DNA from: Bacteroidales bacterium
GTDB taxonomy: Bacteria > Bacteroidota > Bacteroidia > Bacteroidales > UBA932
Assembly: GCA_017509685.1 (NCBI GenBank)
Contig: JAFWPA010000036.1
Location: 21,720-85,719, forward strand
DNA length: 64,000 nt
Direction: 5' to 3'
How positions within the stretch are numbered: position 1 is the stretch's first letter; the number at the start of each line of letters is the position of its first letter. Below are positions 24,676 to 59,314 of this stretch, one piece after another. The translations under genes were made by a program, and so were the position numbers. The notes under the pieces are model-generated. The model made no database searches. It was not told where the DNA came from and saw only the letters and a list, made by a program, of their open reading frames with translations.

Positions 24676-24765
24676 TAACTGCTTGAGCATCAAATGTTTT
24701 TTGATTTTTCTTTAGGCTCCCGGGGCTAAAGAAAAACGGAAAGAGTGCTGATAGTCAACGACTTA
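24676..24765. repeat. 90-bp palindromic intergenic element, copy 1
   Basis: Left arm TAACTGCTTGAGCATCA (24676-24692) and right arm, on the other strand, TAAGTCGTTGACTATCA (24749-24765). Central inverted repeat TTTTTCTTTAG (24705-24715) with 24726-24736 around CCCGGG. It begins 3 bp after the GH31 stop. It has the same 90-bp length and layout as the copies at 36815 and 40681. Confidence 0.75.
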
Positions 24766-24781
24766 GGGCGCGGGCGAAAAT

Positions 24782-24813
24782 ATTGGGCAATTGGGGAAAA
24801 ATGCGTACTTTTG
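24782..24813 (+). promoter_or_regulatory. pdxJ promoter
   Basis: ATTG (24782-24785), 20-bp spacer, TACTTTTG (24806-24813). The spacing matches the other promoters in the window. Confidence 0.6.
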
Positions 24814-24834
24814 TAGGTTTAAATGAAAGCAGAA

Positions 24835-25557
24835 ATGACCCGACTGAGTGTAAACATCAATAAGATTGCCACCATCCGCAACGCGCGGGGCGGGAATATA
24901 CCGGACGTGGCGCTGGCCGCCCGCAGGTGCGAGGAATTTGGCGCCGAGGGCATCACGGTGCATCCCAGGCCGGACGAACGGCATATCCGCTATGCCGACG
25001 TAAGGGAAATCCGGCCCATGATAACTACGGAATTCAATATCGAGGGCAACCCTACCGTCCAGAGCTTCGTGGACCTGGTGCTGGAAGTGGTGCCGGACCA
25101 GGTGACGCTGGTGCCCGACGGCCATAACGCCATTACCTCCAACGCCGGGTGGGACACCCTGGCCAACAAGGGCCTGCTCACGGACCTGTGCCGGATTTTC
25201 CACAGCAAGGGCATCCGTACGTCCATCTTCATCGACCCGGATCCCAGGATGGCTTACGGCGCCGCCGCCTGTGGGGCCGACCGCGTGGAACTGTATACGG
25301 CCGACTACGCCCTGCTGTACCCCCAGGGACGGGAAGCGGCCATCGCCCCCTATCTGGAGGCGGCCAAGGCGGCCCGCGACGCCGGCCTGGGCCTGAACGC
25401 CGGGCACGACCTCTCCCTGGAAAACCTGGCATACTTCATTGAGACCATCCCCTGGACCGATGAGGTTTCCATCGGCCACGCCCTCATCTCCGACGCCCTG
25501 TATATGGGCCTGGAGAAAACTATTGAGGCATACCTTTCGCAAATCCGCAAAAAATAG
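24835..25557 (+). CDS. pdxJ: Pyridoxine 5'-phosphate synthase
   Basis: 240 residues from MTRLSVNINKIATIRNARGG, the usual Bacteroidetes PdxJ start; an ATG 12 bp upstream (24823) is possible but would be almost leaderless. Conserved PdxJ stretches follow: EGITVHPRPDERHI, TEFNIEGNP, QVTLVPD, SIFIDPDP, GADRVELYTADYA, LGLNAGHDLSLENL and EVSIGHALISDAL. It condenses 3-amino-2-oxopropyl phosphate with DXP to give vitamin B6, sharing DXP with Dxr. The CDS has its own promoter. Confidence 0.96.
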   Translation: MTRLSVNINKIATIRNARGGNIPDVALAARRCEEFGAEGITVHPRPDERHIRYADVREIRPMITTEFNIEGNPTVQSFVDLVLEVVPDQVTLVPDGHNAITSNAGWDTLANKGLLTDLCRIFHSKGIRTSIFIDPDPRMAYGAAACGADRVELYTADYALLYPQGREAAIAPYLEAAKAARDAGLGLNAGHDLSLENLAYFIETIPWTDEVSIGHALISDALYMGLEKTIEAYLSQIRKK

Positions 25558-25558
25558 T

Positions 25559-25566
25559 TAACTTTG
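25559..25566 (+). promoter_or_regulatory. -7 box of the OmpH-like lipoprotein gene
   Basis: TAACTTTG directly after the pdxJ stop and 36 bp before the next ATG; the -33 half is not clear. Confidence 0.45.
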
Positions 25567-25601
25567 CGATTCCTTACGATTTAATTATAATAAACGCAAT
25601 A

Positions 25602-26210
25602 ATGAAAAAGAATCTTATCCTCTTCGGCGCCGCCGCCCTGCTGGCCATCGCCGTTTCCTGCAACCAGAATCAGGCAGCAGCTCCCGCAGGCACCGCCGCC
25701 AAAGACAGCCTGGCCGTAGCCGGCAGCATCGTCTATTTCAATATGGACAAGGTGATGGAAGGCTACGACATGGCCAACGACCTCAACTCTGTCTTCGAGA
25801 CCAAGACCTCCGGCATCCAGGCCGAGATCGACCGTCGCGGCAAGAAACTGGAGAAGGACGCCGCCGATTTCCAGAACAAGGTGGACAAAGGCCTCCTCAC
25901 CCAGTCCGTGGCCCAGGCCCAGTACCAGAAACTGCAGGAACAGCAGCAGAGCTACCAGCAGTATGTGGTGACCAAGCAGCAGGAAATGGCCGAAGAGCAG
26001 CAGGTGATGATGAACCAGATTGCCAACGCCATCTCCGAATACGTGGCCGAGTTCAACCTGGAGCACAACTACGCCATGATCCTGACCACAGCCGGCAGCA
26101 TCCTGTCCACCCCCGTGGTCACCGCCGATCCCAAGCTTGACATCACCGACGAACTCCTGGCCGGCCTGAACGCCGCTTACATCAAAACGAAGGAATCCTC
26201 CAAGAAATAA
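25602..26210 (+). CDS. OmpH/Skp-family lipoprotein
   Basis: 202 residues. The lipoprotein signal MKKNLILFGAAALLAIAVSC (Cys20) is followed by IVYFNMDKVMEGYDMANDLNSVFE, a Gln/Lys-rich coiled coil (about 65-135) and SEYVAEFNLEHNYAMILTTAG. It has the Skp layout but is membrane-anchored, unlike the soluble copy at 18222, from which it differs strongly. It may be a second outer-membrane protein chaperone tied to a membrane. The next gene begins 3 bp later. Confidence 0.82.
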   Translation: MKKNLILFGAAALLAIAVSCNQNQAAAPAGTAAKDSLAVAGSIVYFNMDKVMEGYDMANDLNSVFETKTSGIQAEIDRRGKKLEKDAADFQNKVDKGLLTQSVAQAQYQKLQEQQQSYQQYVVTKQQEMAEEQQVMMNQIANAISEYVAEFNLEHNYAMILTTAGSILSTPVVTADPKLDITDELLAGLNAAYIKTKESSKK

Positions 26211-26213
26211 GTT

Positions 26214-27329
26214 TTGAGGATCGCGCTATTATCCAGCTTCTACCCCTTGCGGGGTGGCATTTCCCAGTTCAACGCTTCAATGCTGATTGGACTGGGAAAA
26301 TGCAATGATGTAAAGGCCTTTTCCTTCTCCCGGCAGTATCCCGACTTCCTGTTCCCCGGCAAAACGCAGTACGTGACGCCGGAGGACGAAGCCACTCCGG
26401 TAGAAGCCGAAGCCCTGCTGGATACGATCAATCCCCTTACCTGGATCAAGACCGCCCGCGCCATCCGCGCCTGGAAACCGGACCTTCTGGTGATGAAGTA
26501 CTGGATGAGCTGGTTCGCCCCTTCGCTGGGCTATGTGGCCCGGCACTGCGGCTGCAAGAGCGTGGTGGTGCTGGATAACGTGATCCCCCATGAGGCCCAT
26601 TGGTTTGACAAGCCCCTCACCCGGTATTTCCTGAAGGGCTGCACCGGCTTCGTTTCCATGTCGGAGAGTGTGGAGAAGGACCTCCTTTCCCTGCGTCCCG
26701 ACGCCCCGCACATCCTGCTCCCTCACCCGCTGTACGCCCATTTCGGCCCCAAACTGCCCCGCGGGGAAGCGGCCGCCACCCTGGGCGTGGATCCTGGCAA
26801 AAAGACCCTCCTGTTCTTCGGCCTTATCCGGGAATACAAAGGGCTGGACATCCTGCTGGAGGCCTTCCGGGACCTTCCCGAAGACTATCAGCTGGTGGTG
26901 GCGGGAGAACCTTACGGTTCCTTCGACAAGTATCAGACAATCATCGACAGCCTTCCCGGCAAAGACCGCGTATACGTGTTCCCGGACTATATCCGGGACT
27001 CGCAGGTGAAACAGTTTTTCAGCGTGGCCGATGTGGCCGTCATTCCCTACCGGAGCGCCACCCAGAGCGGCATCAGCTCCATCGCCTACCACTTCGACGT
27101 ACCCATGGTGGTCACCGATGTGGGCGGGCTGAAGGGAACCATCGGCGCGCGTGGCACGGGAATTGTCGCACCCGAACCCAGCCCGGAAGCCATCCGCACG
27201 GAGGTTCTCCGCTTCTTCCGGGATCCGGCCGTCAGGCAGGGCTGCCTGGAGGCCATCGGCAAAGAGAAAGAGCGTCTGGGATGGGACGTATTTTGCCAAA
27301 ACCTGACGGCCTTTGCCGCCACCTTATAA
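26214..27329 (+). CDS. Glycosyltransferase, GT-B fold (GT4/GT1 type)
   Basis: 371 residues. The best start is TTG at 26214 (MRIALLSSFYPLRGGISQFNASML), since this reproduces the normal N-terminal Rossmann strand. The C-terminal domain has KTLLFFGLIREYKGLDILLEAF, VVAGEPYGSFDKYQ and the EX7E-like IPYRSATQSGISSIAYHFDVPMVVTDVGGL, the nucleotide-sugar site of GT4 enzymes. It is cytoplasmic and probably works on a surface glycan or lipid. No other glycan genes are adjacent, so donor and acceptor are unknown. Confidence 0.8.
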   Translation: MRIALLSSFYPLRGGISQFNASMLIGLGKCNDVKAFSFSRQYPDFLFPGKTQYVTPEDEATPVEAEALLDTINPLTWIKTARAIRAWKPDLLVMKYWMSWFAPSLGYVARHCGCKSVVVLDNVIPHEAHWFDKPLTRYFLKGCTGFVSMSESVEKDLLSLRPDAPHILLPHPLYAHFGPKLPRGEAAATLGVDPGKKTLLFFGLIREYKGLDILLEAFRDLPEDYQLVVAGEPYGSFDKYQTIIDSLPGKDRVYVFPDYIRDSQVKQFFSVADVAVIPYRSATQSGISSIAYHFDVPMVVTDVGGLKGTIGARGTGIVAPEPSPEAIRTEVLRFFRDPAVRQGCLEAIGKEKERLGWDVFCQNLTAFAATL

Positions 27330-27344
27330 TATATGTGTAACGCC

Positions 27345-29024
27345 ATGAAACGACTTCTTACATTCATCGCCGCCCTCGCAGTCCTTGGCTGCGCCCAGGC
27401 CATCGCCCAGGAATACGTGCCCGCGCCGGTCACCGTCTCTCAGGAGAAAGTGAAACTGAACGGCAAGGTTTACCTGTCGCACGTGGTACTGGAAAAGCAG
27501 ACGCTCTACGGTATCGCCCGTGCCTACGGGGTGAGCGAGGAAGAACTGTACGAAGCCAATCCTTCCCTGCGGGAGACCGGCCTGCAGAAAAACGCCATCC
27601 TGCTCATTCCCTACAAGGAGCAGACGCCCGGTGTGGCCAATCCGGCCGATACCCCCGCCTCGGCGCCCCAGGGCTATGTGGAGCACGTGGTCCGCTGGTA
27701 TGAAGACCTGGACGACATTGCCCGCCGATACGGTGTAAGCGCGCAGGAAATCATGGATTACAACGGTCTCAAGACCCGGAAACTGAGCACCCGTCAAGTG
27801 CTGAAGATTCCCTCGAAGCAGGAAGAGGCTCCCGCACCGACCGACCTGCTGCAGGAAGTGGCGGAAGAGGAAAACGCCGTGGAGGTGGTACCCGTGGATA
27901 CCCTGGAGGTATCCCTGCCCGTGCTTCCTGACGTTGCACCGGTGGTGCCCGACAGCGTCCTCCTGGCCCAGCGCGTGAAGGACAAGGCCAACTTTTCCCT
28001 CATCCTCCCCTTGCGCGCCAATGCCGGCGGCAGTGAAATCAACATGGACTTTTACTCCGGCGTCCTCATGGCCCTGCGGGACCTGGAAGCCGAAGGCGTA
28101 AAGGCACAGGTGCACGTGTACGACCTCAATGCCGGCATTCCGCCCATCGAGGACCTGGTGCAGGACGACTTTGTGCTGGGACCCGTGGCCTCCCGTGATA
28201 TCGAGGCCATCCTCCAGCGCGTGGAAGGCCGCGTACCGGTAATCTCTCCCCTGGACCAGAAAGCCGCCGCTCTCAGCGCTTACTACAAGAACTTCGTGCA
28301 GGCGCCGTCGGCCATCGACCATCAGTACGAAGACCTGGCCCAGTGGGTGAAGGAAGACCTGGCCCCCACAGACAAAGTGATCCTGATTACGGAAAAAGGC
28401 GCCGACAACGTGACGGCCCCCGTTGCCATCCGCAGCGCCCTGGCCCGCCGGGAACTCCCCTATGAAATCCTGAACTACGCCATTGCCGACGGCCGCACCA
28501 TCCCCGCCACCCTGGCCGAGATGCTGGCCGGCAAGGACAGCCTGAACCGCGTGATCGTAGCCTCCGAGAACGAGGCCTTCACCGGAGACGTGGTCCGTAA
28601 CCTGGGCATCATGCAGGGCAAGGGCTACGATATCACCATGTACGCCCCGTCCAAGGTGCGCACCTTCGAGACCATCGAGGGAACCGCCTACCACGACGCC
28701 GACCTGCACATCTGCACCTCCTACCACGTGGATTATTCGGACCCGAAGGTAGACCGCTTCGTGCACGCCTACCGCGCCCTCTTCCGTACTGAACCTTCCC
28801 AATTCGCCTTCCAGGGTTACGACACCGCCCGCTTTTTCGTGGTGCGCTGCCTGCGCTACGGTGACGACTGGACCCGCTACCTGGGCATGGAGCGCAGCAG
28901 CGGCCTGCACACGGACTTCCTGTTCATCCCAGACGAAAACGGCAACAACCACAACCGGGCCGTACGCCGCATCGTTTTTGAAAAAGACTATACCACCACC
29001 CTCAACCGTTTATGGAAACAGTAA
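27345..29024 (+). CDS. LysM-repeat protein with periplasmic-binding-protein (PBP1-like) domain
   Basis: About 559 residues from MKRLLTFIAALAVLGCAQAIAQ (an ATG at 27333 is an alternative). The signal may be a lipobox (VLGC) or an ordinary signal peptidase site after AIAQ. Two LysM domains follow (about 33-82, SHVVLEKQTLYGIARAYGVS, and about 103-147, HVVRWYEDLDDIARRYGVS), then a Pro/Val/Glu linker and a type-1 periplasmic-binding fold (about 200-540, FSLILPLRANAGGSEINMDFYSGVLMAL). In Bacteroidetes such fusions have no ABC transporter beside them; a wall-bound sensor or structural role is inferred. It overlaps trxB by 13 bp. Confidence 0.75.
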   Translation: MKRLLTFIAALAVLGCAQAIAQEYVPAPVTVSQEKVKLNGKVYLSHVVLEKQTLYGIARAYGVSEEELYEANPSLRETGLQKNAILLIPYKEQTPGVANPADTPASAPQGYVEHVVRWYEDLDDIARRYGVSAQEIMDYNGLKTRKLSTRQVLKIPSKQEEAPAPTDLLQEVAEEENAVEVVPVDTLEVSLPVLPDVAPVVPDSVLLAQRVKDKANFSLILPLRANAGGSEINMDFYSGVLMALRDLEAEGVKAQVHVYDLNAGIPPIEDLVQDDFVLGPVASRDIEAILQRVEGRVPVISPLDQKAAALSAYYKNFVQAPSAIDHQYEDLAQWVKEDLAPTDKVILITEKGADNVTAPVAIRSALARRELPYEILNYAIADGRTIPATLAEMLAGKDSLNRVIVASENEAFTGDVVRNLGIMQGKGYDITMYAPSKVRTFETIEGTAYHDADLHICTSYHVDYSDPKVDRFVHAYRALFRTEPSQFAFQGYDTARFFVVRCLRYGDDWTRYLGMERSSGLHTDFLFIPDENGNNHNRAVRRIVFEKDYTTTLNRLWKQ

Positions 29025-29941
29025 AGACACTCATTCTGGGCGGTGGCCCCGCCGGATTTACGGCCGCCATCTACGCAGCCCGCGCCAACCTCTCCCCCGT
29101 GGTGTATGAAGGCATCCAGCCCGGAGGCCAGCTTACCACCACCACCGTCGTAGAGAATTTCCCCGGTTTCCCCGGCGGAGTAGACGCCAACACCCTGATG
29201 GATTCCATGCGGGAGCAGGCCAAGAGTTTCGGGGCCGATGTGCGCCGCGGTACGGCCACGGCCGTGGATCTGAGCGCCCGTCCCTTCCGCATCACCATTG
29301 ACGACGAGACGGAAATCCTGGCCCAGACCCTCATCATCGCCACCGGTGCCCAGGCCAAATACCTGGGACTGCCGTCGGAGCAGAAATATATGGGCATGGG
29401 CGTAAGCGCCTGCGCCACCTGCGACGGTTTCTTCTACCGCAAACGCACCGTGGCGGTAGTAGGCGGCGGAGACACTGCCTGCGAGGAAGCCCTGTACCTG
29501 GCCTCCCTGGCCAAGAAGGTCTATATGATTGTACGCCGGGACGTGTTCCGCGCTTCCAAGATTATGGGAGACCGCGTGCTGGCCACCCCCAACATCGAAG
29601 TCCTGTGGAACTGCAACACCCAGGAAGTCCTGGGAGACGGGATGGGCGTCACCGGTGCACGGCTGCTCCGGAAAGACGGCACTGTATTTGATATAGAGCT
29701 GGACGGATTCTTCCTGGGAATCGGCCACGAGCCCGGCTCCAAGCTCTTCGCTCCCTGGCTGGCCCTGGACCAGAACGGCTTCATCCTCACCGAGGGGAAG
29801 AGTTCGCGCACCAGCGTACCCGGCGTCTTTGCCGCCGGAGACGTGCAGGATCCCACGTACAAACAGGCCGTAACGGCCGCCGCTTCGGGTTGTATGGCAG
29901 CCCGGGACGCAGAGAAGTTCCTTTTGGAGAATAATATATAA
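29012..29941 (+). CDS. trxB: Thioredoxin reductase
   Basis: 309 residues: FAD-binding LILGGGPAGFTAAIYAAR, redox pair CATC (134-137) followed by DGFF, NADPH-binding VAVVGGGDTACEEALYLA and the closing GVFAAGDVQDPTYKQAVTAAASGCMAA. It keeps thioredoxin reduced in the cytoplasm. The ATG lies inside the end of the preceding gene, showing translational coupling, and bamD starts 5 bp after its stop. Confidence 0.96.
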   Translation: METVKTLILGGGPAGFTAAIYAARANLSPVVYEGIQPGGQLTTTTVVENFPGFPGGVDANTLMDSMREQAKSFGADVRRGTATAVDLSARPFRITIDDETEILAQTLIIATGAQAKYLGLPSEQKYMGMGVSACATCDGFFYRKRTVAVVGGGDTACEEALYLASLAKKVYMIVRRDVFRASKIMGDRVLATPNIEVLWNCNTQEVLGDGMGVTGARLLRKDGTVFDIELDGFFLGIGHEPGSKLFAPWLALDQNGFILTEGKSSRTSVPGVFAAGDVQDPTYKQAVTAAASGCMAARDAEKFLLENNI

Positions 29942-29946
29942 AAGGT

Positions 29947-30750
29947 ATGAAGAGATCGATAATCATTGCCGCTGCGCTGGGCTTTGCCCTGGCCGTCTTT
30001 TCCTGCGCCAGCCAGTATGAGATGCTGCTGGCCTCCAGCGATGTAGACGCCAAGTACCAGGCCGCCATGGAATACTTCCAGAACAAGAAGTACCAGAAAG
30101 CCGCGCAGCTGTTCGAATCCCTGGCCGTCCTCACCAGCGGCACCGCCCGGGACGATACCGTCCAGTATTACTGGGGCCTGTCCAACTACCGTTACAAGGA
30201 CTACTATACGGCCGAATCCAACTTCGCCCGCTTTGTGGAGAACTTCCCCCGCAGTCCCTTCGCGTCGGACGCCCAGTTCTACCGCCTGGACTGCCTGTAC
30301 CGTGCCACCTATCGCTGGGAGCTGGACCAGACACCCACCAAGGCCTGTATGGTGGCCATCACCCAGTATATGCGCGAGTACCCCGACGACCTTCCGCACA
30401 TGCAGGCCTGCCAGGCCATGATGCACGACCTGCAGGACCGCCTGGACCGCAAGGATTTCGAAGCCGGCAAGCAGTACTACACCATGGAGGACTACCCCGC
30501 CGCCCGCATCAAGCTGCGCAACGTGCTCAAGAACAACTCCGAAAACTTCTACCGGGAAGACGTCCTGTACTACACCGCCATGTCGTCCTATCACTATGCC
30601 CGCCTCAGCGTGCCGGCAAAGATGAAGGAGCGCTATCTCACCTTCGTGGACGACTACCTCAACTTCATCGGCGAATACCCGGAATCCCACTACCGCCACG
30701 AACTGGACGGCCTTTACAGAAAAGTGCAGGACTATTTGAAAAATAATTGA
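29947..30750 (+). CDS. bamD: Outer-membrane assembly lipoprotein BamD
   Basis: 267 residues with a lipoprotein signal (MKRSIIIAAALGFALAVFSC, Cys20), then TPR-like helical pairs: KYQAAMEYFQNKKYQKAAQLFESL, YYWGLSNYRYKDYYTAESNFARFVENFPRSPFASDAQFYRLDCLY and a C-terminal FIGEYPESHYRHELDGLY. This is the YfiO/BamD layout. It partners BamA in inserting outer-membrane proteins and is encoded away from bamA here. Confidence 0.92.
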   Translation: MKRSIIIAAALGFALAVFSCASQYEMLLASSDVDAKYQAAMEYFQNKKYQKAAQLFESLAVLTSGTARDDTVQYYWGLSNYRYKDYYTAESNFARFVENFPRSPFASDAQFYRLDCLYRATYRWELDQTPTKACMVAITQYMREYPDDLPHMQACQAMMHDLQDRLDRKDFEAGKQYYTMEDYPAARIKLRNVLKNNSENFYREDVLYYTAMSSYHYARLSVPAKMKERYLTFVDDYLNFIGEYPESHYRHELDGLYRKVQDYLKNN

Positions 30751-30804
30751 AACTAAGTAGAAACTCACGTTGTACATTATATAGATAACGAATTTTGTAG
30801 AGAA

Positions 30805-31146
30805 ATGGAAAGTAAGAAAAAAGTACCCGTGAACACGGTAACGCGTGACATCAAGAATCTGGCAGCCCCCACCGGCAACATCTATGAATCCGTAGTGATC
30901 CTGTACAAGAGGGCCAACCAGATTGCCGTGGCCGAGAAGAAAGAACTGATGAAGAAACTGGACGAGTTCCGCGGAGACCGCGACACCATGGAAGAAGTGT
31001 TCGAGAACAAGGAGCAGATCGAAATCTCCAAATACTATGAGCGCCAGCCCAAACCGGACCTGGTTGCCATTGCCGAATTCGAGGCCGGAGACCTCTTCTA
31101 CCGCAAGGCTCAGAACGAAAATCCCATCGACATCAACGGAGAATAA
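30805..31146 (+). CDS. rpoZ: RNA polymerase omega subunit, Bacteroidetes type
   Basis: 113 residues. TRDIKNLAAPTGNIYESVVILYKRANQIA corresponds to the omega core in which the N-terminal helix binds beta-prime; the middle is charged, and IAEFEAGDLFYRKA resembles the end of Bacteroidetes omega proteins. It stabilises RNA polymerase. It sits between bamD (54 bp) and recN (6 bp). Confidence 0.85.
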   Translation: MESKKKVPVNTVTRDIKNLAAPTGNIYESVVILYKRANQIAVAEKKELMKKLDEFRGDRDTMEEVFENKEQIEISKYYERQPKPDLVAIAEFEAGDLFYRKAQNENPIDINGE

Positions 31147-31152
31147 GGCGTT

Positions 31153-32799: not shown

Positions 32800-32803
32800 C
32801 ACC

Positions 32804-33256: not shown

Positions 33257-33894
33257 AAAAACTGCTGATTCCCCTTTTCTTCAGCCTCATAGCCGCCTGG
33301 TCCTGCGATGTGGGCACCACTTACAGCGCCACCAACGTGCAGGACATCGTTACCATCATCGAGCACCAGCTGGTGAACGACAGCGGGGTGCTGTACACTG
33401 TCACCTCCGCCCCCAAGGATATGCCCGAACTGCAGGAAGGTCATCGCTACTACCTGTTCTTCGACATCCTGAACCAGAATTTCGAGATTGACATCAAGTC
33501 GGTGAGTCCCATCGACATCATCATCCCGCAGGAAGACACCGGCGAAATTGTCGAAGCCCATGACCCTGTGACCATCCAGTTCAATTACATCGGCCCCAAA
33601 TACATTGACCTGGCGTTCAACTACTACTATGACCCCACCAGCAACTGCGCGCACGACGTATTCGTCCGCTCCGAGTATGAGAACAGGATGCTCAAGCTTA
33701 CCCTGTATCACGACGGTAACGACGAGAACCCCACCACCATGTCTGAGGACCTCCTCAAACAGAAAACGCGCATCATCAGCATTTCCCTGGGAGAGAAGGA
33801 AGTCACTTCCGTAAGCCTCACCCTGAACCTCCTGGGAACAGACGAAAAAGGCAACCCCGCCATCATCACCAAAACCTACACTACTGCTAATTAA
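33253..33894 (+). CDS. Lipoprotein, NigD-like (tentative)
   Basis: 213 residues with the signal MKKLLIPLFFSLIAAWSC (Cys18). The rest is predicted to be beta-rich, with HRYYLFFDILNQNFEIDIKSVSPIDIIIP, a central DPVTIQFNYIGPKYIDLAFNYYYDP and C-terminal strands. The two-domain beta layout resembles NigD-like proteins of Bacteroidales, whose role is unknown. It overlaps the Fur-family gene by 4 bp, which hints at metal- or stress-linked expression. Copy 4 of the intergenic element starts 3 bp after the stop. Confidence 0.5.
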   Translation: MKKLLIPLFFSLIAAWSCDVGTTYSATNVQDIVTIIEHQLVNDSGVLYTVTSAPKDMPELQEGHRYYLFFDILNQNFEIDIKSVSPIDIIIPQEDTGEIVEAHDPVTIQFNYIGPKYIDLAFNYYYDPTSNCAHDVFVRSEYENRMLKLTLYHDGNDENPTTMSEDLLKQKTRIISISLGEKEVTSVSLTLNLLGTDEKGNPAIITKTYTTAN

Positions 33895-33897
33895 TAC

Positions 33898-34044
33898 AGA
33901 GGGCGCTGCCCTGCCGGGCGCTCGGTGTTTAAAGTATTGATTACCAAGTATATAAGATTTTTTACATGTCTGATAATCAGCGATTTACGCCATGAGCATG
34001 TCTGCAAAAAAAAACGGCCTGCAATCCTGCAAGCCGTTTTTTTG
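33898..34044 (-). repeat. Intergenic element copy 4 (deleted form) with its flanks, inverted relative to copy 3
   Basis: Core 33930-33987: on the minus strand left arm TAAATCGCTGATTATCA (33971-33987) and right arm, complemented, TAAAGTATTGATTACCA (33930-33946). Only 58 bp separate arm ends: compared with copy 3, exactly 32 bp holding the central palindrome are missing between AAAAAAT direct repeats. Flanks also match copy 3: a terminator on one side and GAGCGCCCGGCAGGGC on the other. Confidence 0.8.
34006..34039 (-). terminator. Terminator of the PycB/OadA-like gene
   Basis: On the minus strand a 12-bp stem (34012-34023 with 34028-34039, one G-U pair, 4-nt loop) is followed by nine T. On the plus strand the same site has a C-A mismatch, so it suits minus-strand transcripts. 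Confidence 0.85.
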
Positions 34045-34047
34045 TTG

Positions 34048-34071
34048 GGGTGGATGATGGGGCTCGAACCC
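34048..34071 (-). other. Displaced 24-nt 3' end of tRNA-His
   Basis: Identical, on the minus strand, to 35995-36018, i.e. the last base pairs of the T-stem, the T-loop and the 3' acceptor strand of the intact tRNA-His. It begins exactly at the stop codon of the PycB/OadA-like gene. No other tRNA arms are present, so it is a fragment. Confidence 0.9.
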
Positions 34072-35856
34072 TTATTGCACAAAGGCAACAATTTCGCCCT
34101 TTTCCACTTTTTCGCCCTGTTTTCCCAGAACGGCAACCAGGAGGCCGTCAACTGCAGCCACAACGTCTTCCAGACCATAGTAGGTCTGAACGTGGCCGAT
34201 GACTTCGCCTGCCTTGACCTTCTTGCCCACTACAGGAGCCTTGGAGGCATCGTCCACATCCACTTCCCACAGCAGCTGGCCCTTGACGGGGCACTGTACG
34301 GGCGTGGCTTTGGGATACTTGGCCACATACTCTTCCACGCTGAACTTGGGCATTTCCACCACGGGACGCTCTATCACGATGGGGGCGCCGGCCTTGGCTT
34401 TCATCTCTTCCAGGTCCTTGTTGAAACGTTCCTTGGCGATGCCGCTGCGGAAGTCACGGTACTGACGCTCGAACATGGCCATGTTCAGGAGTTCTTCGTC
34501 GTCCTCGCCGTAGTCCCAGCCTTCCTCGTCCATCATCTTGCGGAACTTGGGAAGTTCGTCGGGATACATATCCTTCGGGTTGCCGGTGTAGAACTCCATC
34601 CCTTTTTCCTTGGCCAGGGCCACGATTTCGGGGGCCAGTTCTCCGGGCAGCTTGCCCATATTGCCCAGGATCATACCCCAGGTATCCTTGTCGATGGTGG
34701 TCCAACGGGGCTTGTCCTGCAGCATATTGAATACGTTCATCAGAGCCGTATTCTTCACGTACTGGCTGAACGGGGTTACAAGCGGCGGGTAGCCCAGGCG
34801 GGGCCATACGTACTCCACTTCGTCAAAGAGCTTCACCATCAAAGTATCCAGGCTCATTTCCGGACGGCCGTGGGCGCGCTGGGCGGCGTTGATGGCGCCC
34901 TGGAAGCCCTTCAGATCGGCCATCATGGAGCCCATCATACCGCCGGGCAGGCCGCAGCCCACCAGCAGGGAGGTCATCTGGGAGTTGGTAGGGTTGATCC
35001 AGTAGCCCAGGAAGTCGTCGATGAATTCCTGCGTGAGGCGGCGCACTTCCATATAGGCATCCATATTGATGTCCTTTACCTGAAAGCCGTCGGCTTTCAT
35101 CATCTGCTGAACGGTAATGACGTCCGGATGCACCTTGCCCCAGGAGAGAGGCTCTACGGCAACGTCCAGATAATCCGCTCCGGCGCGAGCTACTTCCAGC
35201 ATGGATGCCGGGGAGAAACCGGGGCCGGTGTGACCATGGTACTGTACCTTGATTTCCGGGTGTGCTTTCTTGATGCCGGCCACAATCTGTCCCAGTTCCG
35301 TGGGACGGCCGATACCCGCCATATCCTTGAGGCAGATTTCATCGGTGCCGTATTCCACCAGCTGGTCCACCAGCTTGAGGTAATAATCTACCGTATGAAC
35401 GGGAGAATGCGTGATGGACAGGGCTGCCTGTGAAATCATTCCGCCCTTCTTGGCAAGTTCAATAGACGTCTTGAGGTTGCGGTGGTCGTTGAGGCCGCAG
35501 AAGGAACGGGCGATGTCCGTCCCCTGTTTCTTCTTCACCTTGAACATCAGTTCACGGACGTCTTCCGGAACGGGATACATACGGATGGCATTGAGGCCGC
35601 GCTCCAGCATATGGGTCTGGATGCCCGCCTTATGGAAGGGGGCCGTCCACTTGCGCACAGAGATGTTAGGGTTCTCACCGTACAGCAGATTCACCTGCTC
35701 GAAGGCACCGCCATTGGTTTCCACACGGTCGAAGCAGCCCATATCCACAATAGCGGGGGCTACCCGTACCAACTGGTCCACGCGCGGCTGATATCGGCCG
35801 GAGCTCTGCCACATATCCCTGTAAACAAGGGAGAATTTGATTTCACGTTTTGCCAT
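34072..35856 (-). CDS. PycB/OadA-like carboxyltransferase protein with biotinyl-like domain lacking the acceptor lysine
   Basis: 594 residues from MAKREIKFSLVYRDMWQ (ATG at 35856; an ATG at 35886 is less likely). Residues 1-300 follow the carboxyltransferase barrel of pyruvate carboxylase B and oxaloacetate decarboxylase alpha: VYRDMWQSS in place of LRDAHQS, SITHSPVHTVDYY, EICLKDMAGIGRP with the carbamylation lysine, and the metal ligands YHGHTGPG; then CGLPGGMMGSMMADL. Residues about 520-594 form a biotinyl/lipoyl hammerhead, but where EAMKM is expected the sequence reads HVQTYYGLEDV (555-565). Without that lysine it cannot carry biotin itself and would need a separate carrier protein, or it does another reaction. 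No partner subunits are adjacent. Confidence 0.7.
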   Translation of the reverse strand: MAKREIKFSLVYRDMWQSSGRYQPRVDQLVRVAPAIVDMGCFDRVETNGGAFEQVNLLYGENPNISVRKWTAPFHKAGIQTHMLERGLNAIRMYPVPEDVRELMFKVKKKQGTDIARSFCGLNDHRNLKTSIELAKKGGMISQAALSITHSPVHTVDYYLKLVDQLVEYGTDEICLKDMAGIGRPTELGQIVAGIKKAHPEIKVQYHGHTGPGFSPASMLEVARAGADYLDVAVEPLSWGKVHPDVITVQQMMKADGFQVKDINMDAYMEVRRLTQEFIDDFLGYWINPTNSQMTSLLVGCGLPGGMMGSMMADLKGFQGAINAAQRAHGRPEMSLDTLMVKLFDEVEYVWPRLGYPPLVTPFSQYVKNTALMNVFNMLQDKPRWTTIDKDTWGMILGNMGKLPGELAPEIVALAKEKGMEFYTGNPKDMYPDELPKFRKMMDEEGWDYGEDDEELLNMAMFERQYRDFRSGIAKERFNKDLEEMKAKAGAPIVIERPVVEMPKFSVEEYVAKYPKATPVQCPVKGQLLWEVDVDDASKAPVVGKKVKAGEVIGHVQTYYGLEDVVAAVDGLLVAVLGKQGEKVEKGEIVAFVQ

Positions 35857-35883
35857 ATAGCGAATACTGATTTGACGTATTGA

Positions 35884-35891
35884 CAAAGATA
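35884..35891 (-). promoter_or_regulatory. -7 box of the PycB/OadA-like gene
   Basis: TATCTTTG on the minus strand, 27 bp before the ATG at 35856. It is back to back with the tRNA-His promoter. Confidence 0.5.
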
Positions 35892-35901
35892 CAAAAATTA
35901 T

Positions 35902-35932
35902 TTTGCAAAATCGGAATAAATCCGTACATTTG
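35902..35932 (+). promoter_or_regulatory. Bacteroidetes-type promoter of tRNA-His
   Basis: TTTG (35902-35905), 19-bp spacer, TACATTTG (35925-35932), ending 12 bp before the tRNA. Confidence 0.8.
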
Positions 35933-35944
35933 CAGTCCCAAATG

Positions 35945-36017
35945 GTGGATGTAGTTCAGCTGGTAGAGCATCGGATTGTGGTTCCGAGTGTCGTGGGTTC
36001 GAGCCCCATCATCCACC
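35945..36017 (+). tRNA. tRNA-His (GTG)
   Basis: Acceptor GTGGATG with CATCCAC, anticodon stem TCGGA/TCCGA around loop TTGTGGT (anticodon GTG), T-stem GTGGG/CCCAT, discriminator C. A G at 35944 can serve as the G-1 that marks tRNA-His. Its 3' end is duplicated in inverse orientation at 34048-34071. Confidence 0.95.
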
Positions 36018-36024
36018 CAGATGC

Positions 36025-36060
36025 AACCTTCAGATTTTTCTGAGGGTTGTTTTTATTTTT
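36025..36060 (+). terminator. tRNA-His terminator
   Basis: A 9-bp stem (AACCTTCAG at 36025-36033 with 36040-36048, one G-U) followed by a T-rich run to 36060. Confidence 0.85.
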
Positions 36061-36065
36061 ATTCG

Positions 36066-36073
36066 TATATTTG
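36066..36073 (+). promoter_or_regulatory. -7 box of the hypothetical gene after tRNA-His
   Basis: TATATTTG, 25 bp before the ATG at 36098. It indicates independent transcription after the tRNA terminator. Confidence 0.5.
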
Positions 36074-36097
36074 CATGTATCTAATAATGTGAGCCAT

Positions 36098-36742
36098 ATG
36101 AAAAAATTATTCATTCTCGTAGTATGCATGATGTTCGCACATGCCCTGTTCGCACAAGACATCATTACAAAAGCAGATGGAACCGATATTCAGGCGAAAG
36201 TGACGGAAGTGAGTCAGAACCAGATTTCGTTTAAGAAGTTTTCTAATCTTGACGGCCCCACATACACTATTAACGCATCGGATGTATTGATGATTACCTA
36301 TGAGAATGGAGAGCGTGAAATGTTTAACGTCAAGAATGAGTCATCGATACCGCAAGGCGTGATGACATATAATCCGTGGAGCGGGAAGATTTCCGTCGGT
36401 GGAGTTACAATAGAGGATGGAATGCTGAACAGATATATTTCCCAAGAGGATATTAAGTCCTATAAGGGTAGTAAAACGTGTATGTTAGTCGGTGGTATTG
36501 TTGGTATTGTTGGAGCGGTTCCCTTCGGATGGAGTATCGGTACTGCCATTGCAGGAGCTAAACCGAATTTAGGTATGCTGATCGGAGGTGGCGTTGCTTT
36601 CGTTGGAGGTATTGTTGTTTCCTTAGTCGGTGAAGGTAAAGTGAAATCCATTGTAAATAATTACAACTCGAAACTAGCTTTTCAGCCACAGTTCCAATTT
36701 GGCGCTACAGATAATGGAGTTGGTTTAGCATTAGTGTTTTAA
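36098..36742 (+). CDS. AT-rich secreted/membrane protein, unknown function
   Basis: 214 residues from MKKLFILVVCMMFAHALFAQ (signal peptide). Residues about 21-75 (DIITKADGTDIQAKVTEVSQNQISFKKFSNLDGPTYTI) match a small beta domain often seen at the start of hypothetical Bacteroidetes proteins. Later come two glycine-rich hydrophobic stretches (about 128-150 and 156-175, e.g. MLVGGIVGIVGAVPFG). I recognise no function. Codon use is visibly AT-richer than in all neighbours (AAA, ATT, GTA, TTA), and it lies between tRNA-His and repeat copy 3, which suggests recent acquisition. Confidence 0.75.
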   Translation: MKKLFILVVCMMFAHALFAQDIITKADGTDIQAKVTEVSQNQISFKKFSNLDGPTYTINASDVLMITYENGEREMFNVKNESSIPQGVMTYNPWSGKISVGGVTIEDGMLNRYISQEDIKSYKGSKTCMLVGGIVGIVGAVPFGWSIGTAIAGAKPNLGMLIGGGVAFVGGIVVSLVGEGKVKSIVNNYNSKLAFQPQFQFGATDNGVGLALVF

Positions 36743-36760
36743 CCCCTCCCTAAAACAAAC

Positions 36761-36793
36761 AAACGGCTTGCAAGACTGCAGGCCGTTTTTTTT
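36761..36793 (+). terminator. Terminator of the hypothetical gene, paired with repeat copy 3
   Basis: A 12-bp stem (36761-36772 with 36777-36788, one G-U, loop AGAC) plus eight T. It is nearly identical to the terminator at 34006-34039 read on the opposite strand. Confidence 0.88.
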
Positions 36794-36814
36794 GCCGCAG
36801 ACATACTCATGGCG

Positions 36815-36904
36815 TAAATCACTGACTATCAGGCACATAAAAAATTTTCTTGACTCCCGCGGGAACAAAGAAAAAATCTTATATACTTGGTAATCAGCGC
36901 TTTA
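36815..36904 (+). repeat. 90-bp palindromic intergenic element, copy 3 (full length)
   Basis: Left arm TAAATCACTGACTATCA (36815-36831); right arm complemented TAAAGCGCTGATTACCA (36888-36904). Centre TTTTCTT (36845-36851), CCCGCGGG (36856-36863), AAAGAAAA (36867-36874). Flanked by the terminator at 36761 and by GAGCGCCCGGCAGGGC (from 36911), both shared with copy 4. The rpoN stop is 34 bp beyond the right arm. Confidence 0.8.
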
Positions 36905-36938
36905 TATAACGAGCGCCCGGCAGGGCGCCGGCAGAGGG

Positions 36939-38393
36939 CTACAATTCCCTACGGAGCCGGGCTTTGGGGATGTCAAGTTGGGCGCGGTATTTGGCGATGG
37001 TGCGGCGGGCGACTTTGTAGCCGCGGGCGGCCAGGCCGTCTACCAGTTCGTCGTCGGTGAGGGGGTTGTGCTTGTCTTCGCCGTCTACCATTTCCCGGAG
37101 GGCTTTTTTGATTTCGCGGGTAGAAACTTCTTCGCCTTCGGTGTTTTCCAGTCCTTCGGAGAAGAAATACTTGAGGGGGAAGATGCCGAAGTGGGTTTCG
37201 ATCCACTTGCTGTTGACCACACGGGAGATGGTGGAGATGTCAAAGCCGGTCATTTCGGCAATGTCCTTGAGCACCATGGGGCGCAGGTTGCTTTCGTCGC
37301 CGTCCACGAAGTAGTCGTGCTGGTAGTCGATGATGGCCTGCATGGTGCTTTGCAGGGTGTTCTGCCGCTGACGCAGGGCTTCGATGAACCATTTGGCCGA
37401 ATCAATCTTCTGCTTCACGAACGTGGCGGCTTCCTTGTCGGCCTTGGAGGAAGACAGGCGGCCGGTTTCCATAATCTCGGAGTACCGGCGGTTGATGCGC
37501 AGTTCCGGGATGGAGAAACGCGGCATGGTGAGGATGAGCTGGCCGTTTTCGTAGTCCAGGTGGAAGTCCGGGACCACCTGCTGGGCCTGGTCGTTGTAGG
37601 AGTCGTCCACCTGTCCGCCCGGGGAAGGGTTCAGGCGACGGATCTCGTCCAGGACGCCCTTCATCTCATCCTCGCCCAGGTGCAGGCGGGCCATAATCTT
37701 CTGGAAATGACGGTTCTTGAAAGCCTCGAACTGGGTTTCCAGCACTTTGATAGCGTTCTCTACGGAGGGGGTGCGTTTCTTGTCTTCCAGCTGGATGAGC
37801 AGGCATTCCCGCAGGTCCCGTGCGCCCACGCCGGAGGGCTCGAACTCCTGGATGACCTTGAGCAGTTTCTCCACCTCTTCGGCCGATGATTCCACGCCGG
37901 CGCGGAAGGCGAGGTCGTCCACCAGGGATTCGATGTCCCTGCGCAGATAACCGTCTTCGTCCAGCGAGCCGATGATGAAGGACGCCACCGTGCGCTGATG
38001 ATCCGTGAGATTGCGGTACCCAAGCTGCTCCTGCAGGCTTTGGGTAAAACTCTGTTTGACGGAGAAGGTATTGTATTCCGGACGCTCGTCCTTGCCCCAG
38101 TTGTTCACGTGGAGGTTGTAGGAAGGGATGTCGTCGTCCTGGGGGCCGTAGTTTTCTTCCAGGGAGCCGCCGCTCTGCTCCTTCTCCTCCACTTCGGAGA
38201 TGGAGACGTCACGGGGCTGGTCGTCGTCCCGCTTGGGAGAATCGTCGTCGATGACGGGGTTGTCGTTCAGGACCTCGCGCACATACTGCTCCAGGGCCTG
38301 CACCGGCATCTCGATGACCTTGATGGTCTGGATCTGGAGCGGTGACAGCCTCTGCTGCTGTTTCTGTTCAAGTCCCTGTTTGATGGAAGCCAT
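36939..38393 (-). CDS. rpoN: RNA polymerase sigma-54 factor
   Basis: 484 residues. Region I is the Gln/Leu-rich start (IKQGLEQKQQQRLSPLQIQTIKVIEMPVQALEQYV, activator contact), region II is acidic, and region III has the core-binding part, the helix-turn-helix (VLKDIAEMTGFDISTISRVVNSKW) and the RpoN box near the end (ARRTIAKYRAQL). It directs RNA polymerase to -24/-12 promoters with an enhancer-binding activator. The start overlaps the stop of the SPOR gene (TAATG). Confidence 0.97.
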   Translation of the reverse strand: MASIKQGLEQKQQQRLSPLQIQTIKVIEMPVQALEQYVREVLNDNPVIDDDSPKRDDDQPRDVSISEVEEKEQSGGSLEENYGPQDDDIPSYNLHVNNWGKDERPEYNTFSVKQSFTQSLQEQLGYRNLTDHQRTVASFIIGSLDEDGYLRRDIESLVDDLAFRAGVESSAEEVEKLLKVIQEFEPSGVGARDLRECLLIQLEDKKRTPSVENAIKVLETQFEAFKNRHFQKIMARLHLGEDEMKGVLDEIRRLNPSPGGQVDDSYNDQAQQVVPDFHLDYENGQLILTMPRFSIPELRINRRYSEIMETGRLSSSKADKEAATFVKQKIDSAKWFIEALRQRQNTLQSTMQAIIDYQHDYFVDGDESNLRPMVLKDIAEMTGFDISTISRVVNSKWIETHFGIFPLKYFFSEGLENTEGEEVSTREIKKALREMVDGEDKHNPLTDDELVDGLAARGYKVARRTIAKYRAQLDIPKARLRREL

Positions 38394-38845
38394 TAGCGGG
38401 GATAATTGATGGTCTCCTTAATGATATACGCGGTGGGATAGGTCCACTTGAGGGCGTTGTAGATGCGCAGGGCCTCATCCTTGGTGCGGAAGTCTCCCAC
38501 GGTCACCTTGTAATTGGGGCTCTCGAAGGAGCGGTACACCGCCGCGCGGAACTGCTGCTGCAGCGTTTTCTCGATGGCTTCGGACTTGGCGCGGGCCTGG
38601 GGCCCGTTGTCATAATAGACGCGGATGCGGTAGCCGGTGATGGGCTTGTTGGCATTTTCGCGGACATAGGTGTCCATGGCCTGCTGCACGGCGACACTCT
38701 GGGTAATCTTTACACCGGAACCGATGACAGACAGGATGCTTTTTCCCAGCAGGGTGGAGTCTACGGGAGCGGTTTCGACCTCCTGGGCCTGCAGCGCAGC
38801 AGCGCTCAGGACCAGCAGGGAGAGTATGACGAAGATACGTTTCAT
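38393..38845 (-). CDS. SPOR-domain secreted protein
   Basis: 150 residues with a signal peptide (MKRIFVILSLLVLSAAALQAQ). Residues about 75-150 form a SPOR-like domain: GYRIRVYYDNGPQARAKSEAI, YRSFESPNYKVTVGDFRTKDEALRIYNAL. SPOR domains bind denuded peptidoglycan at division sites. It is the middle gene of a LEA-like / SPOR / rpoN operon, overlapping both neighbours by 1-4 bp. Confidence 0.85.
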   Translation of the reverse strand: MKRIFVILSLLVLSAAALQAQEVETAPVDSTLLGKSILSVIGSGVKITQSVAVQQAMDTYVRENANKPITGYRIRVYYDNGPQARAKSEAIEKTLQQQFRAAVYRSFESPNYKVTVGDFRTKDEALRIYNALKWTYPTAYIIKETINYPR

Positions 38846-39315
38846 TTTCTGGTAAATTGGGAAAGGTCCAGGTCCCGGAACTTGAGCGGAGCCCGGAGAA
38901 CACCGTTTTTCTTGAGGGCGCCCTGTACGTCGATATCGGCCTTGAGGCCGCTCAGGGACTGTTTGGAAGCAATGACCAGCACATCCAGCAGCGAGGCGCC
39001 ATCGGCCAGGGTGACCGTGCAGGGCAGCTCATACACCTGTTCGCACCGGGGGGCCAGTTCTATGCTGCCCGTGACAAAGTGGGCGATGGGCTTGTCTTCA
39101 TAGCGGATGGTTCCGGTGATTTCCTGCACGGCGAGCCCCATGGCGGGGTTGTTGATGCCCAGCAGCAACTTCCCGTCCATAGACCGCAGGGAGGTGGGCA
39201 CAATGTAGGCCACGCCGGCGGAAGTGAGGGAAATCTCCTTGACTTTGGACACGCCGCAGGAGCAGGCCAGCAGGGCCGCTACAAGAAAGATGCCGATATG
39301 CTTAAAAGCTTTCAC
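38842..39315 (-). CDS. LEA-like (LEA2/WHy-type) lipoprotein
   Basis: 157 residues with a lipoprotein signal (MKAFKHIGIFLVAALLACSC, Cys20). The mature part is one beta-sandwich-like domain: VKEISLTSAGVAYIVPTSLRSMDGKLLLGINNPAMGLAVQEITGTIRYEDKPIAHFVTGSI, which resembles LEA2 domains of Bacteroidetes lipoproteins. Function unknown. First gene of the rpoN operon; its promoter is divergent from that of miaB. Confidence 0.65.
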   Translation of the reverse strand: MKAFKHIGIFLVAALLACSCGVSKVKEISLTSAGVAYIVPTSLRSMDGKLLLGINNPAMGLAVQEITGTIRYEDKPIAHFVTGSIELAPRCEQVYELPCTVTLADGASLLDVLVIASKQSLSGLKADIDVQGALKKNGVLRAPLKFRDLDLSQFTRK

Positions 39316-39320
39316 TAACG

Positions 39321-39349
39321 CAAAGGTAGTGATTTTTTTCGTAACTTTG
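39321..39349. promoter_or_regulatory. Divergent -7 boxes for the rpoN operon and miaB
   Basis: TACCTTTG on the minus strand (39321-39328) and TAACTTTG on the plus strand (39342-39349) stand 13 bp apart in the 40-bp gap between the two start codons. RNA polymerase can hardly occupy both at once. Confidence 0.6.
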
Positions 39350-39355
39350 CACCCT

Positions 39356-40669
39356 ATGAAAAAAAGAGCGTATATCGAGACTTACGGGTGTCAGATGAAC
39401 GTGAACGACACCGAGGTGATTTTCTCCATTTTGGCCGATGCCGGCTACGAAAGGACGGAGCAGATGGAAGAGGCAGACCTGGTGATGGCCAACACCTGCA
39501 GCATCCGGGACAACGCGGAGCAGCGCATCTGGGGCCGCATCGAGGTCTTCAACCGGCTGCGCGTGAACCGGCCCGGCCTGGTGGTAGGCATCGTGGGCTG
39601 TATGGCGGAACGCCTGAAGGACAAGCTCCTGGACACGCACAAGGTGGACCTGGTGGTGGGCCCCGACGCTTACCGTTCGCTGCCCCGCCTGCTGGAGGCC
39701 ATCGGCCCCGACAGTCCCCAGATCGACGTACTGCTCTCCCGCGAAGAGACCTACGCCGACATCACTCCCGTGCGCACGGACAAGAACGGGATATCGGCTT
39801 TCATCTCCATCATGCGCGGCTGCAACAACGTATGCTCTTACTGCGTGGTGCCCTATACCCGCGGCGCAGAACGCTCCCGCGACGCCCACTCCATCGTGCG
39901 CGAGGCGTGCGACGTATACGCACGCGGATATAAAGAGGTAACCCTGCTGGGACAGAACGTGGACAGCTATCTGTGGAAATCGGCCACGGAAACCGTGAAC
40001 TTCGCGCGTCTGCTGGAGATGGTGGCCGCCATCGCACCGGACCTGCGCGTGCGCTTCGCCACCTCCCATCCCAAGGATATTAGCGACCAGGTCATCTACA
40101 CCATGGCCGCCCATCCCAATATTTGCAAACATATCCACCTGCCGGTCCAGAGTGGCAGCACCCGGATGCTGGAACTGATGCGGCGCAAGTACAGCCGCGA
40201 ATGGTACCTGGAGCGCGTAGCCAAGATTCGGGAAGTGATGCCGGACTGCGGTCTCACCACGGACGTCATTGCCGGATTCTGCACGGAAACTCCTGAGGAT
40301 CACGCCGATACGCTAAGCCTGATGGAGGAGGTGGGCTTTGACTGGGCCTTTATGTTCGCCTATTCGGACCGCCCCGGCACCCTGGCCAACCGTACCATGA
40401 AAGACGACGTTCCGGCCGATGAAAAGAACCGTCGGCTGAATCAGATCATAGAACTGCAGAACCGCAAGTCCCTGGAACGTTACCGCGCCCAGATTGGCCG
40501 GAAACTGGAGGTGCTGGTAGAAGGCCCTTCCAAGCGGGACCCCGCCATGCTCTGCGGGCGCGCCTCCAACAACATGATGTGCGTCTTCCCCGCCGAAGGC
40601 CGTGCCGCCGGCACCTATACGCAGGTGCGCGTGGTGGACTGCACATCGGCCACCCTCATTTGCGAATAG
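39356..40669 (+). CDS. miaB: tRNA-2-methylthio-N6-dimethylallyladenosine synthase MiaB
   Basis: 437 residues from MKKRAYIETYGCQMNVNDTE (ATG at 39356, 7 bp after the -7 box). Cys12 and two later cysteines (NTCSIRDNAE, GIVGCMAERL) form the UPF0004 cluster; the radical-SAM motif is RGCNNVCSYCVVPYTRGAERSR. A TRAM domain ends the protein (ALCGRASNN... CVFPAE). The enzyme methylthiolates i6A37 of tRNAs that read UNN codons. Confidence 0.95.
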   Translation: MKKRAYIETYGCQMNVNDTEVIFSILADAGYERTEQMEEADLVMANTCSIRDNAEQRIWGRIEVFNRLRVNRPGLVVGIVGCMAERLKDKLLDTHKVDLVVGPDAYRSLPRLLEAIGPDSPQIDVLLSREETYADITPVRTDKNGISAFISIMRGCNNVCSYCVVPYTRGAERSRDAHSIVREACDVYARGYKEVTLLGQNVDSYLWKSATETVNFARLLEMVAAIAPDLRVRFATSHPKDISDQVIYTMAAHPNICKHIHLPVQSGSTRMLELMRRKYSREWYLERVAKIREVMPDCGLTTDVIAGFCTETPEDHADTLSLMEEVGFDWAFMFAYSDRPGTLANRTMKDDVPADEKNRRLNQIIELQNRKSLERYRAQIGRKLEVLVEGPSKRDPAMLCGRASNNMMCVFPAEGRAAGTYTQVRVVDCTSATLICE

Positions 40670-40680
40670 CGCTCTTACCA

Positions 40681-40770
40681 TAAATCGCTGTTTATCAACG
40701 TATTGCATATTTTTCTTTAGCCCGCCCGGCGTAAAGAAAATTCTCAAAGTATCTGTGTATCAACGAGTTA
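40681..40770. repeat. 90-bp palindromic intergenic element, copy 2
   Basis: Left arm TAAATCGCTGTTTATCA (40681-40697); right arm complemented TAACTCGTTGATACACA (40754-40770). Centre TTTTCTTTA (40711-40719) with TAAAGAAAA (40732-40740) around GCCCGCCCGGC. Length and internal offsets equal copies 1 and 3. It fills the miaB-radC gap. Confidence 0.75.
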
Positions 40771-59296: not shown

Positions 59297-59314
59297 GTGC
59301 CGATTATTTGGCAG

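Follow-up and report, generated by a model that had tools for sequence, protein, structure and literature searches.

The DNA examined here is a stretch of 64,000 nucleotides (nt) from a Bacteroidales bacterium (contig JAFWPA010000036.1, positions 21,720 to 85,719; hereafter the window), which carries several copies of a 90-bp intergenic palindromic element. Comparison of related sequences and a structural model showed a family of such elements with a covarying central hairpin. The family is linked to a gene for a transposase of about 310 amino acids (aa) with a conserved HUH motif, catalytic Tyr and Y1 fold, and its hairpins match the individual transposases. The element is very probably the non-autonomous repeat of a system like that of the REP-associated tyrosine transposases (RAYTs) and their repetitive extragenic palindromic (REP) sequences, of the REPtron or TIRtron kind, mobilised in trans by this HUH/Y1 transposase.

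The 90-bp element and its central hairpin

The element had been described in an earlier note from copies in the window, with the reservation that a genome-wide scan might return only a few weak matches. The genome of the window (G000; 79% complete, 2,307,727 bases in 91 contigs) was searched for the arm pattern. With at most two mismatches allowed there were 31 strand-matches, and the reversed-pattern control had none, although at least three of the 31 (L011, L021, L025) showed no surrounding element. The exact central pattern gave 47 strand-matches against 0 for its control. The matches in this genome are not due to chance, and the reservation does not apply. A covariance model built from 28 aligned copies of the same genome (R1) recovered at least 108 strand-matches at E ≤ 1, equal to at least 55 places, which is a lower bound because 150 of 626 candidates were scored. 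The fixed length claimed in the note was borne out, since 53 of the 55 places measured 90 bp, one 58 bp and one 48 bp. As the extent of the element, 90 bp holds for the best conserved part, but weak conservation of at most 0.70 bit runs about 14 nt past the ends of the copies in this genome. A CTTTAG hairpin was present in 27 of the 35 copies compared together with their flanks, some of them retrieved by that very pattern.

The scan was extended to related Bacteroidales, whose genomes are mostly drafts and include many metagenome-assembled genomes. R1 found matches in 14 of 61 genomes, namely G000 and 13 others of the same genus. A genus-wide model (R2) was built from an alignment of 42 elements, of which 6 came from G000, 17 had been found via R1 or the arm pattern and 19 lay beside transposase genes. 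It matched in 79 of 101 genus genomes at E ≤ 0.01, G000 counted; its strand-match counts per genome come from at most 43 scored candidates and are lower bounds. The listed matches measured 90 bp in G030, 89 bp in G005 and 88 bp in G008, thus the length seems constant within a genome and slightly different between species, and the 42 elements align at 85–92 bp. At the loci of the relatives the arms were retained, and the sequence of the central hairpin differed from genome to genome.

The architecture is fixed and consists of a 25-bp arm, a hairpin of about 40 nt and a second 25-bp arm. In the arms it is the sequence that is conserved, apart from five free positions either side of the arm middle; in the hairpin it is the pairing, and the hairpin sequence changes completely between lineages. 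In the 42-element alignment, 84.2% of the cells of the 13-bp central helix were paired compared to 46.8% after shuffling, and 204 cells had changed on both sides compared to 73. The covariation score was 0.850 against 0.205 for the shuffled alignments, none of 500 shuffles being as high, and sliding the partner gave at most 0.256. The suggestion that the family is under structural constraint therefore held for the central hairpin. The arms were rejected as stems, as the five free positions inside the arm pair near background. A single long helix over the whole 90-mer was likewise rejected in the copies of G000 (74.0% of cells paired against 72.9% shuffled), with a covariation score of 0.173 against 0.150 that was reached by 3 of 500 shuffles; so was an outer stem in this genome (3.06 of 10 positions paired against a background of 3.29). 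Outer inverted repeats could be seen by eye in the relatives G019, G001 and G005.

The foot and the arms were counted on both strands of 89 elements (178 strands) taken from the best 150 rows of the R2 scan of the 80 transposase loci described below, and the sample leans towards the model for that reason. GT[AG]G did not occur within 14 nt 5' of the hairpin on any of the 178 strands, where shuffles predict 3.0. TTAY was present at positions 23–26 on 122 strands and TTAYR on 106. Positions 1–3 read TAA on 84 strands and.AA on 148. The arm is a degenerate motif, because the strict TGA...TCA centre was found on only 37 strands. Compared with a REPIN, the element has two inverted arms around one hairpin, and its arms are not hairpin REPs. 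The outer ends also bear on another explanation, in which the element would be an ordinary miniature inverted-repeat transposable element (MITE) of a classical terminal inverted repeat (TIR) transposase, for example of the IS630 type, with a TA target duplication in the outer TAA...TTA. The palindromic outer ends of the copies in G000 do begin with TA; however, over the wider set the outer T is only weakly conserved (56%), and the linked gene encodes a Y1 enzyme and not a DDE enzyme. This origin is considered very unlikely, although no search was aimed at DDE transposases with matching ends.

The linked transposase and its cognate hairpins

Matches to the Pfam family Y1_Tnp (PF01797) were found in 46 of 61 genomes, those of the genus being weak and mostly within open frames of approximately 280–380 aa. 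Two of them lay near elements that R1, built from G000 copies only, had already found: in G028:C80 the element occupies 5387–5476 and the gene 5519–6436, and in G021:C37 the two are 1.4 kb apart. The gene of the window's own genome is located at G000:C51:33129-34049 and encodes an HUH/Y1 protein of about 310 aa. Eighteen of 20 fetched stretches contained this long transposase family, L162 and L165 carrying other Y1-like genes; R2 found the element in 17 of the 18 (not in L158) and in neither of the other two.

Linkage was evaluated in the best 80 of 282 transposase relatives from a scan of named genomes, all of them titled Bacteroidales or Bacteroidia and many from ruminant stomachs. In 78 of the 80 loci (exceptions L247 and L250) the gene had an element no more than 500 bp away, upstream in 62, downstream in 66 and on both sides in 50, some genes being at contig ends. 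The density was 130 elements in 77,197 bp near the gene (1.68 per kb) compared to 24 in 283,139 bp further out (0.085 per kb). The 66 downstream elements started between -33 and +118 nt from the stop codon, apart from one at +368, and in 24 of them the stop codon began within the first 12 nt of the element. The note had proposed to look for a RAYT-type gene with matching sequence, and the present gene, RAYT-like and with the 90-bp element at its flanks, answers to that description. In one locus (L164 3549–3905, G005), three elements follow one another at intervals of about 45 bp immediately 3' of the transposase gene, like a repeat cluster.

Control loci behaved differently. Of the radC loci examined in the genus (30 loci, 107,909 bp, E ≤ 0.1), that of G000 alone had an element, and none of the 29 loci of other species did. 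Loci of other Bacteroidales Y1 genes, unlike those of the long family, had no such element: none of 40 reached E < 0.1, the best E being 0.14, in a control that covered 40 of 44 such loci (L133–L135 and L146 left out). The element was therefore rejected as a companion of those genes. Across the 101 genus genomes, at least 10 element strand-matches were present in 55 of the 58 with a strong transposase match (E < 1e-50) compared to 10 of the 43 others; the Fisher test on this co-occurrence ignores relatedness, and there are exceptions both ways (G015, G036 and G070; G030 and nine others).

The flanking arrangement might also indicate a composite mobile unit, in which element, gene and element form one insertion-sequence-like transposon, with the dispersed 90-bp copies as its remnants or as MITEs derived from its ends. 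The presence of elements on both sides of the gene in 50 of 80 loci, at narrow distances, is in line with this. Nevertheless, the elements are all complete palindromes and not halves, each having a hairpin of its own, the transposases of one assembly average 55% identity, and the dispersed elements of G000 far outnumber its single transposase gene; such a unit is very unlikely.

Alignment of 18 proteins revealed His58, His60, Tyr118, Asn121 and Asn122 as invariant, so the HUH motif (H58, H60) and the catalytic Tyr (Y118) of Y1 enzymes are present. The W[QE] motif was not kept, W being read from the alignment at that place in one of the 18. The PF01797 cut-off was exceeded in five of six scanned proteins, and the same six gave no DnaA_C or helix-turn-helix (HTH) profile match. 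The best NCBIfam profile of all five transposases scanned was the REP-associated tyrosine transposase (NF047646), at 26.0–44.7 bits. An AlphaFold2 model of the transposase (predicted local distance difference test 91.4, predicted template-modelling score (pTM) 0.92) had its best PDB fold match in 4er8, a RAYT bound to a REP hairpin (E 4.5e-5), followed by IS608; as modelled, the transposase has a Y1 fold like that of TnpAREP. The C-terminal part folded alone gave a pTM of 0.48 and a best PDB match of E 4.0, which is not meaningful. PDB searches by sequence returned Y1 transposases (E 0.0007–0.7), and 14-3-3 chains matching in the C-terminal part (E 0.2) were taken as chance.

A profile of the transposase matched in 22 of 198 order genomes at E ≤ 1e-10, at full length in G000 only and over the HUH core in the other 21; phage records gave no match to the G000 transposase. 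In a 46-row tree without subclass 2.6 reference sequences, the long family formed one side of a branch with support 98/99. Between the transposase gene of G000 and its nearest element lies a 197-aa open frame (L043 835–1428, minus strand) without a Pfam or NCBIfam match. That element has the TTTTCTTTAG hairpin type, which is common among the dispersed copies.

Hairpin similarity was measured over 28 fixed positions compared without gaps. The two elements framing one gene agreed at 23.7 of 28 positions compared to 11.6 between loci (48 genes), and 42 of the 48 framing pairs exceeded 18, the 95th percentile of unrelated pairs. Among 55 genes, hairpin similarity was 25.0 at a protein identity of at least 80% (27 pairs) and 10.9–13.0 under 65%, and the arms stayed at 27–28 of 50 where protein identity was below 80%. 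In a set of 78 genes, transposases at least 80% identical from different assemblies had hairpins agreeing at 24.9 of 28 (38 pairs), different transposases within one assembly at 12.4 (22 pairs; the highest value, 23, in a pair 79% identical) and the remaining pairs at 11.7 (2,943 pairs). In these sequence comparisons, the hairpin follows the transposase lineage and not the genome.

Copies in the window and related units

The three copies of exactly 90 bp in the earlier note, with their arms and central inverted repeat, were recovered where they had been placed. The first (24676–24765; arms 24676–24700 and 24741–24765; R2 E 1e-8) has a stem-loop of the TTTTCTTTAG type at 24706–24735 and sits between a GH31-domain gene and pdxJ, 3 nt past the TAG of the former. 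The second (36815–36904; arms 36815–36839 and 36880–36904; E 5.5e-8) has a hairpin of the TTTTCTTGA variant at 36845–36874 and adjoins rpoN (sigma-54). The third (40681–40770; arms 40681–40705 and 40746–40770; hairpin 40711–40740; E 9.5e-10) lies between a UPF0004/radical-SAM (miaB-like) gene and radC, 11 nt past the TAG of the miaB-like gene. The deleted fourth copy (33930–33987) could also be confirmed as a 58-bp copy with both outer arms and without the central hairpin (E 9.4e-5). A fifth copy of 90 bp, missed in the note, was recovered with R2 at 59217–59306 (E 1.5e-7); it has a different hairpin, of the TTTCTCGGGTGCAC type, and is flanked by a truB-like and a tRNA-synthetase gene on the minus strand. 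The copies at 24676 and 40681 do lie just after stop codons; this is looser for 33930 and 36815 and does not apply to 59217.

Similar flanks surround the copies 33930 and 36815 in inverted orientation (33920–34035 and 36755–36930) and include a hairpin resembling a terminator as well as a GC-rich palindrome, as though one copy were an inverted duplicate of the other. An Rfam scan of the window gave four tRNA matches and nothing else.

Over 59 of 61 genomes scanned, the arm motif TAAN5TGATNATCAN5TTA (at most one mismatch) was commoner than its reversed control in most genomes of the order, with 20 against 0 in G039 and the opposite in G040 (4 against 7). In G055, which belongs to another family of Bacteroidales, inverted 25-bp ends resembling the arm motif enclose an open frame of 332 aa (L105 1501–2791), and TTTTGTCATGTACT stands beside one end of this unit and likewise in L092. 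The frame, which we presume to resemble RhuM-type proteins, was dropped as an autonomous partner once the Y1 genes had been found.

Proposed mobilisation, known systems and significance

A REPtron consists of a RAYT (TnpAREP) with its REP, BIME or REPIN repeats (PMC6006769, PMC8266576). As there, a Y1 HUH enzyme is accompanied by a repeat beside its gene and dispersed, mostly intergenic copies (PMC6006769, PMC8266576): the element flanks the gene in 78 of 80 loci and occupies at least 55 places in G000. Further likenesses are that one genome can hold several diverged enzymes, each with a repeat type of its own, and that the RAYT–REP complex is the best fold match. Unlike a REPtron, the element has no GT[AG]G foot and places one hairpin between two palindromic arms at a fixed length of about 90 bp, where a REP has 20–40 nt; the enzyme is about twice as long, with the W[QE] motif in one of 18 proteins.

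RAYT subclass 2.6, equal to RAYT group 5 and described from Bacteroidetes, has genes with 'atypical secondary structures' at their flanks that also occur as copies elsewhere, the motifs NH[LIV]H, WQ and YIH[QN]NP, and a median length of 179 aa (PMC6006769). The host group and the flanking by structured repeats that also occur elsewhere agree with the present system, and the nearest outside relatives of the long family in these searches carry the subclass signatures NH.H and YIH[NQ]NP. In a comparison by description and not by structures, the long family differs in its length of about 310 aa and in its motifs [DN]H.H and Y..NN[PAH]. In TIRtrons, a RAYT-like gene (TIRYT) has terminal inverted repeats at its flanks, of which some are self-complementary and some make up repeat families, and REP ends can supply stop codons (PMC3733652); several TIRYTs carry extra C-terminal domains (PMC6006769). 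The RAYT-like gene here likewise lies between inverted repeats other than GTAG REPs, with an element on either side in 50 of 80 loci, but the element alignments did not show the GGGGWSAS consensus of TIRtrons and six scanned proteins had no DnaA_C or HTH match.

With the IS200/IS605 family (IS608, ISDra2) the system shares the Y1 HUH fold and the placing of a tetranucleotide 5' of its hairpins. TTAC is the target of IS608. The element ends are symmetric, unlike those of IS200/IS605, and an IS200 profile match, where present, is far below cut-off. Neither the 90-bp element nor the family of about 310 aa was described in the literature searched, which included few subscription papers (accessible parts of PMC6006769, PMC8266576, PMC3733652, PMC5771137, PMC12306157 and PMC8049555). 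Judged by sequence and model, the element and its transposase appear to be of the RAYT/REP kind, REPtron- or TIRtron-like, and novel in the missing GT[AG]G foot and in a C-terminal part without a structural match.

The idea that a transposase copies the element in trans, as a MITE- or REP-like unit, is supported by the flanking RAYT-like gene and the lineage-matched hairpins, from which we infer the copying itself. The transposase would bind and recognise the element as single-stranded DNA, with the central hairpin as lineage-specific recognition structure and the arms and the TTAY(R) foot beside the hairpin as shared signals. It may cut at or near the element ends and would mobilise the whole palindrome in trans, and therefore copies would keep one length while unconstrained positions drift. 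A transposase flanked by the element probably spreads it.

The element might instead be a domesticated site, kept mainly as a host structure such as a hairpin at mRNA 3' ends, a bidirectional terminator or a protein-binding site, with the transposase as a partner that rarely or never moves it. The fixed length, the strong compensatory change in the hairpin, the two window copies 3 and 11 nt past stop codons and the one to few diverged transposase genes in most genomes, which are not identical multicopy insertions, are compatible with such a role, and RAYTs have been described as domesticated (PMC8266576). On the other hand, a host function alone would not predict that hairpin identity tracks the transposase lineage over the host genome. 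Moreover, the miaB-like gene and radC stand side by side without an element in G028, as seen by eye, where G000 has the copy 40681–40770. We consider a domesticated site unlikely.

Several observations weigh against mobilisation by the linked transposase. No movement, cleavage or target duplication was seen in these sequence comparisons, and the orthologous gaps compared for empty sites yielded the element-free gap of G028, which shows a difference and not its direction, its junctions not being resolvable. The 80-bit cut-off of NF047646 was not reached by any of the five transposases scanned, and the elements lack the GT[AG]G foot. Six of the 48 framing pairs were not above the 95th percentile of unrelated pairs, and the overall rank correlation of protein and hairpin was modest (Spearman 0.20; 0 of 999 permutations as high; 55 genes) because hairpins become unrelated below about 65% protein identity. 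In G000 some 760 bp and another frame separate the transposase gene from its nearest element, and no element turned up on the other side of the gene. R2 was itself partly built from elements beside transposase genes (19 of 42). Ten of the 43 genomes without a strong transposase match still had at least 10 element strand-matches; G030, 97% complete, had at least 43 and no transposase match at E ≤ 1e-10, and its partner may have been lost or may lie in an assembly gap.

Within the proposed mobilisation in trans, a two-part recognition code is a tentative possibility, in which the C-terminal domain without structural match would read the arms as a family signature and the HUH domain would read the fast-changing hairpin as a private key. 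If true, several transposases per cell would run separate, non-interfering repeat populations, a hairpin switch would found a new population, and the genus would be a natural experiment in the joint change of a nuclease and a DNA hairpin.

RAYT–REP systems are thought to be domesticated transposons, and little is known about the joint change of enzyme and repeat. The genus studied here has many lineages of the transposase, several of them often within a single genome. Each lineage has a hairpin of its own, and arms and length are shared, so that enzyme–hairpin co-evolution and orthogonality become directly testable. The system would be an example of a RAYT-like system without a GTAG guide, and it would account for a class of palindromes found between genes in Bacteroidales genomes, many of which come from ruminants.

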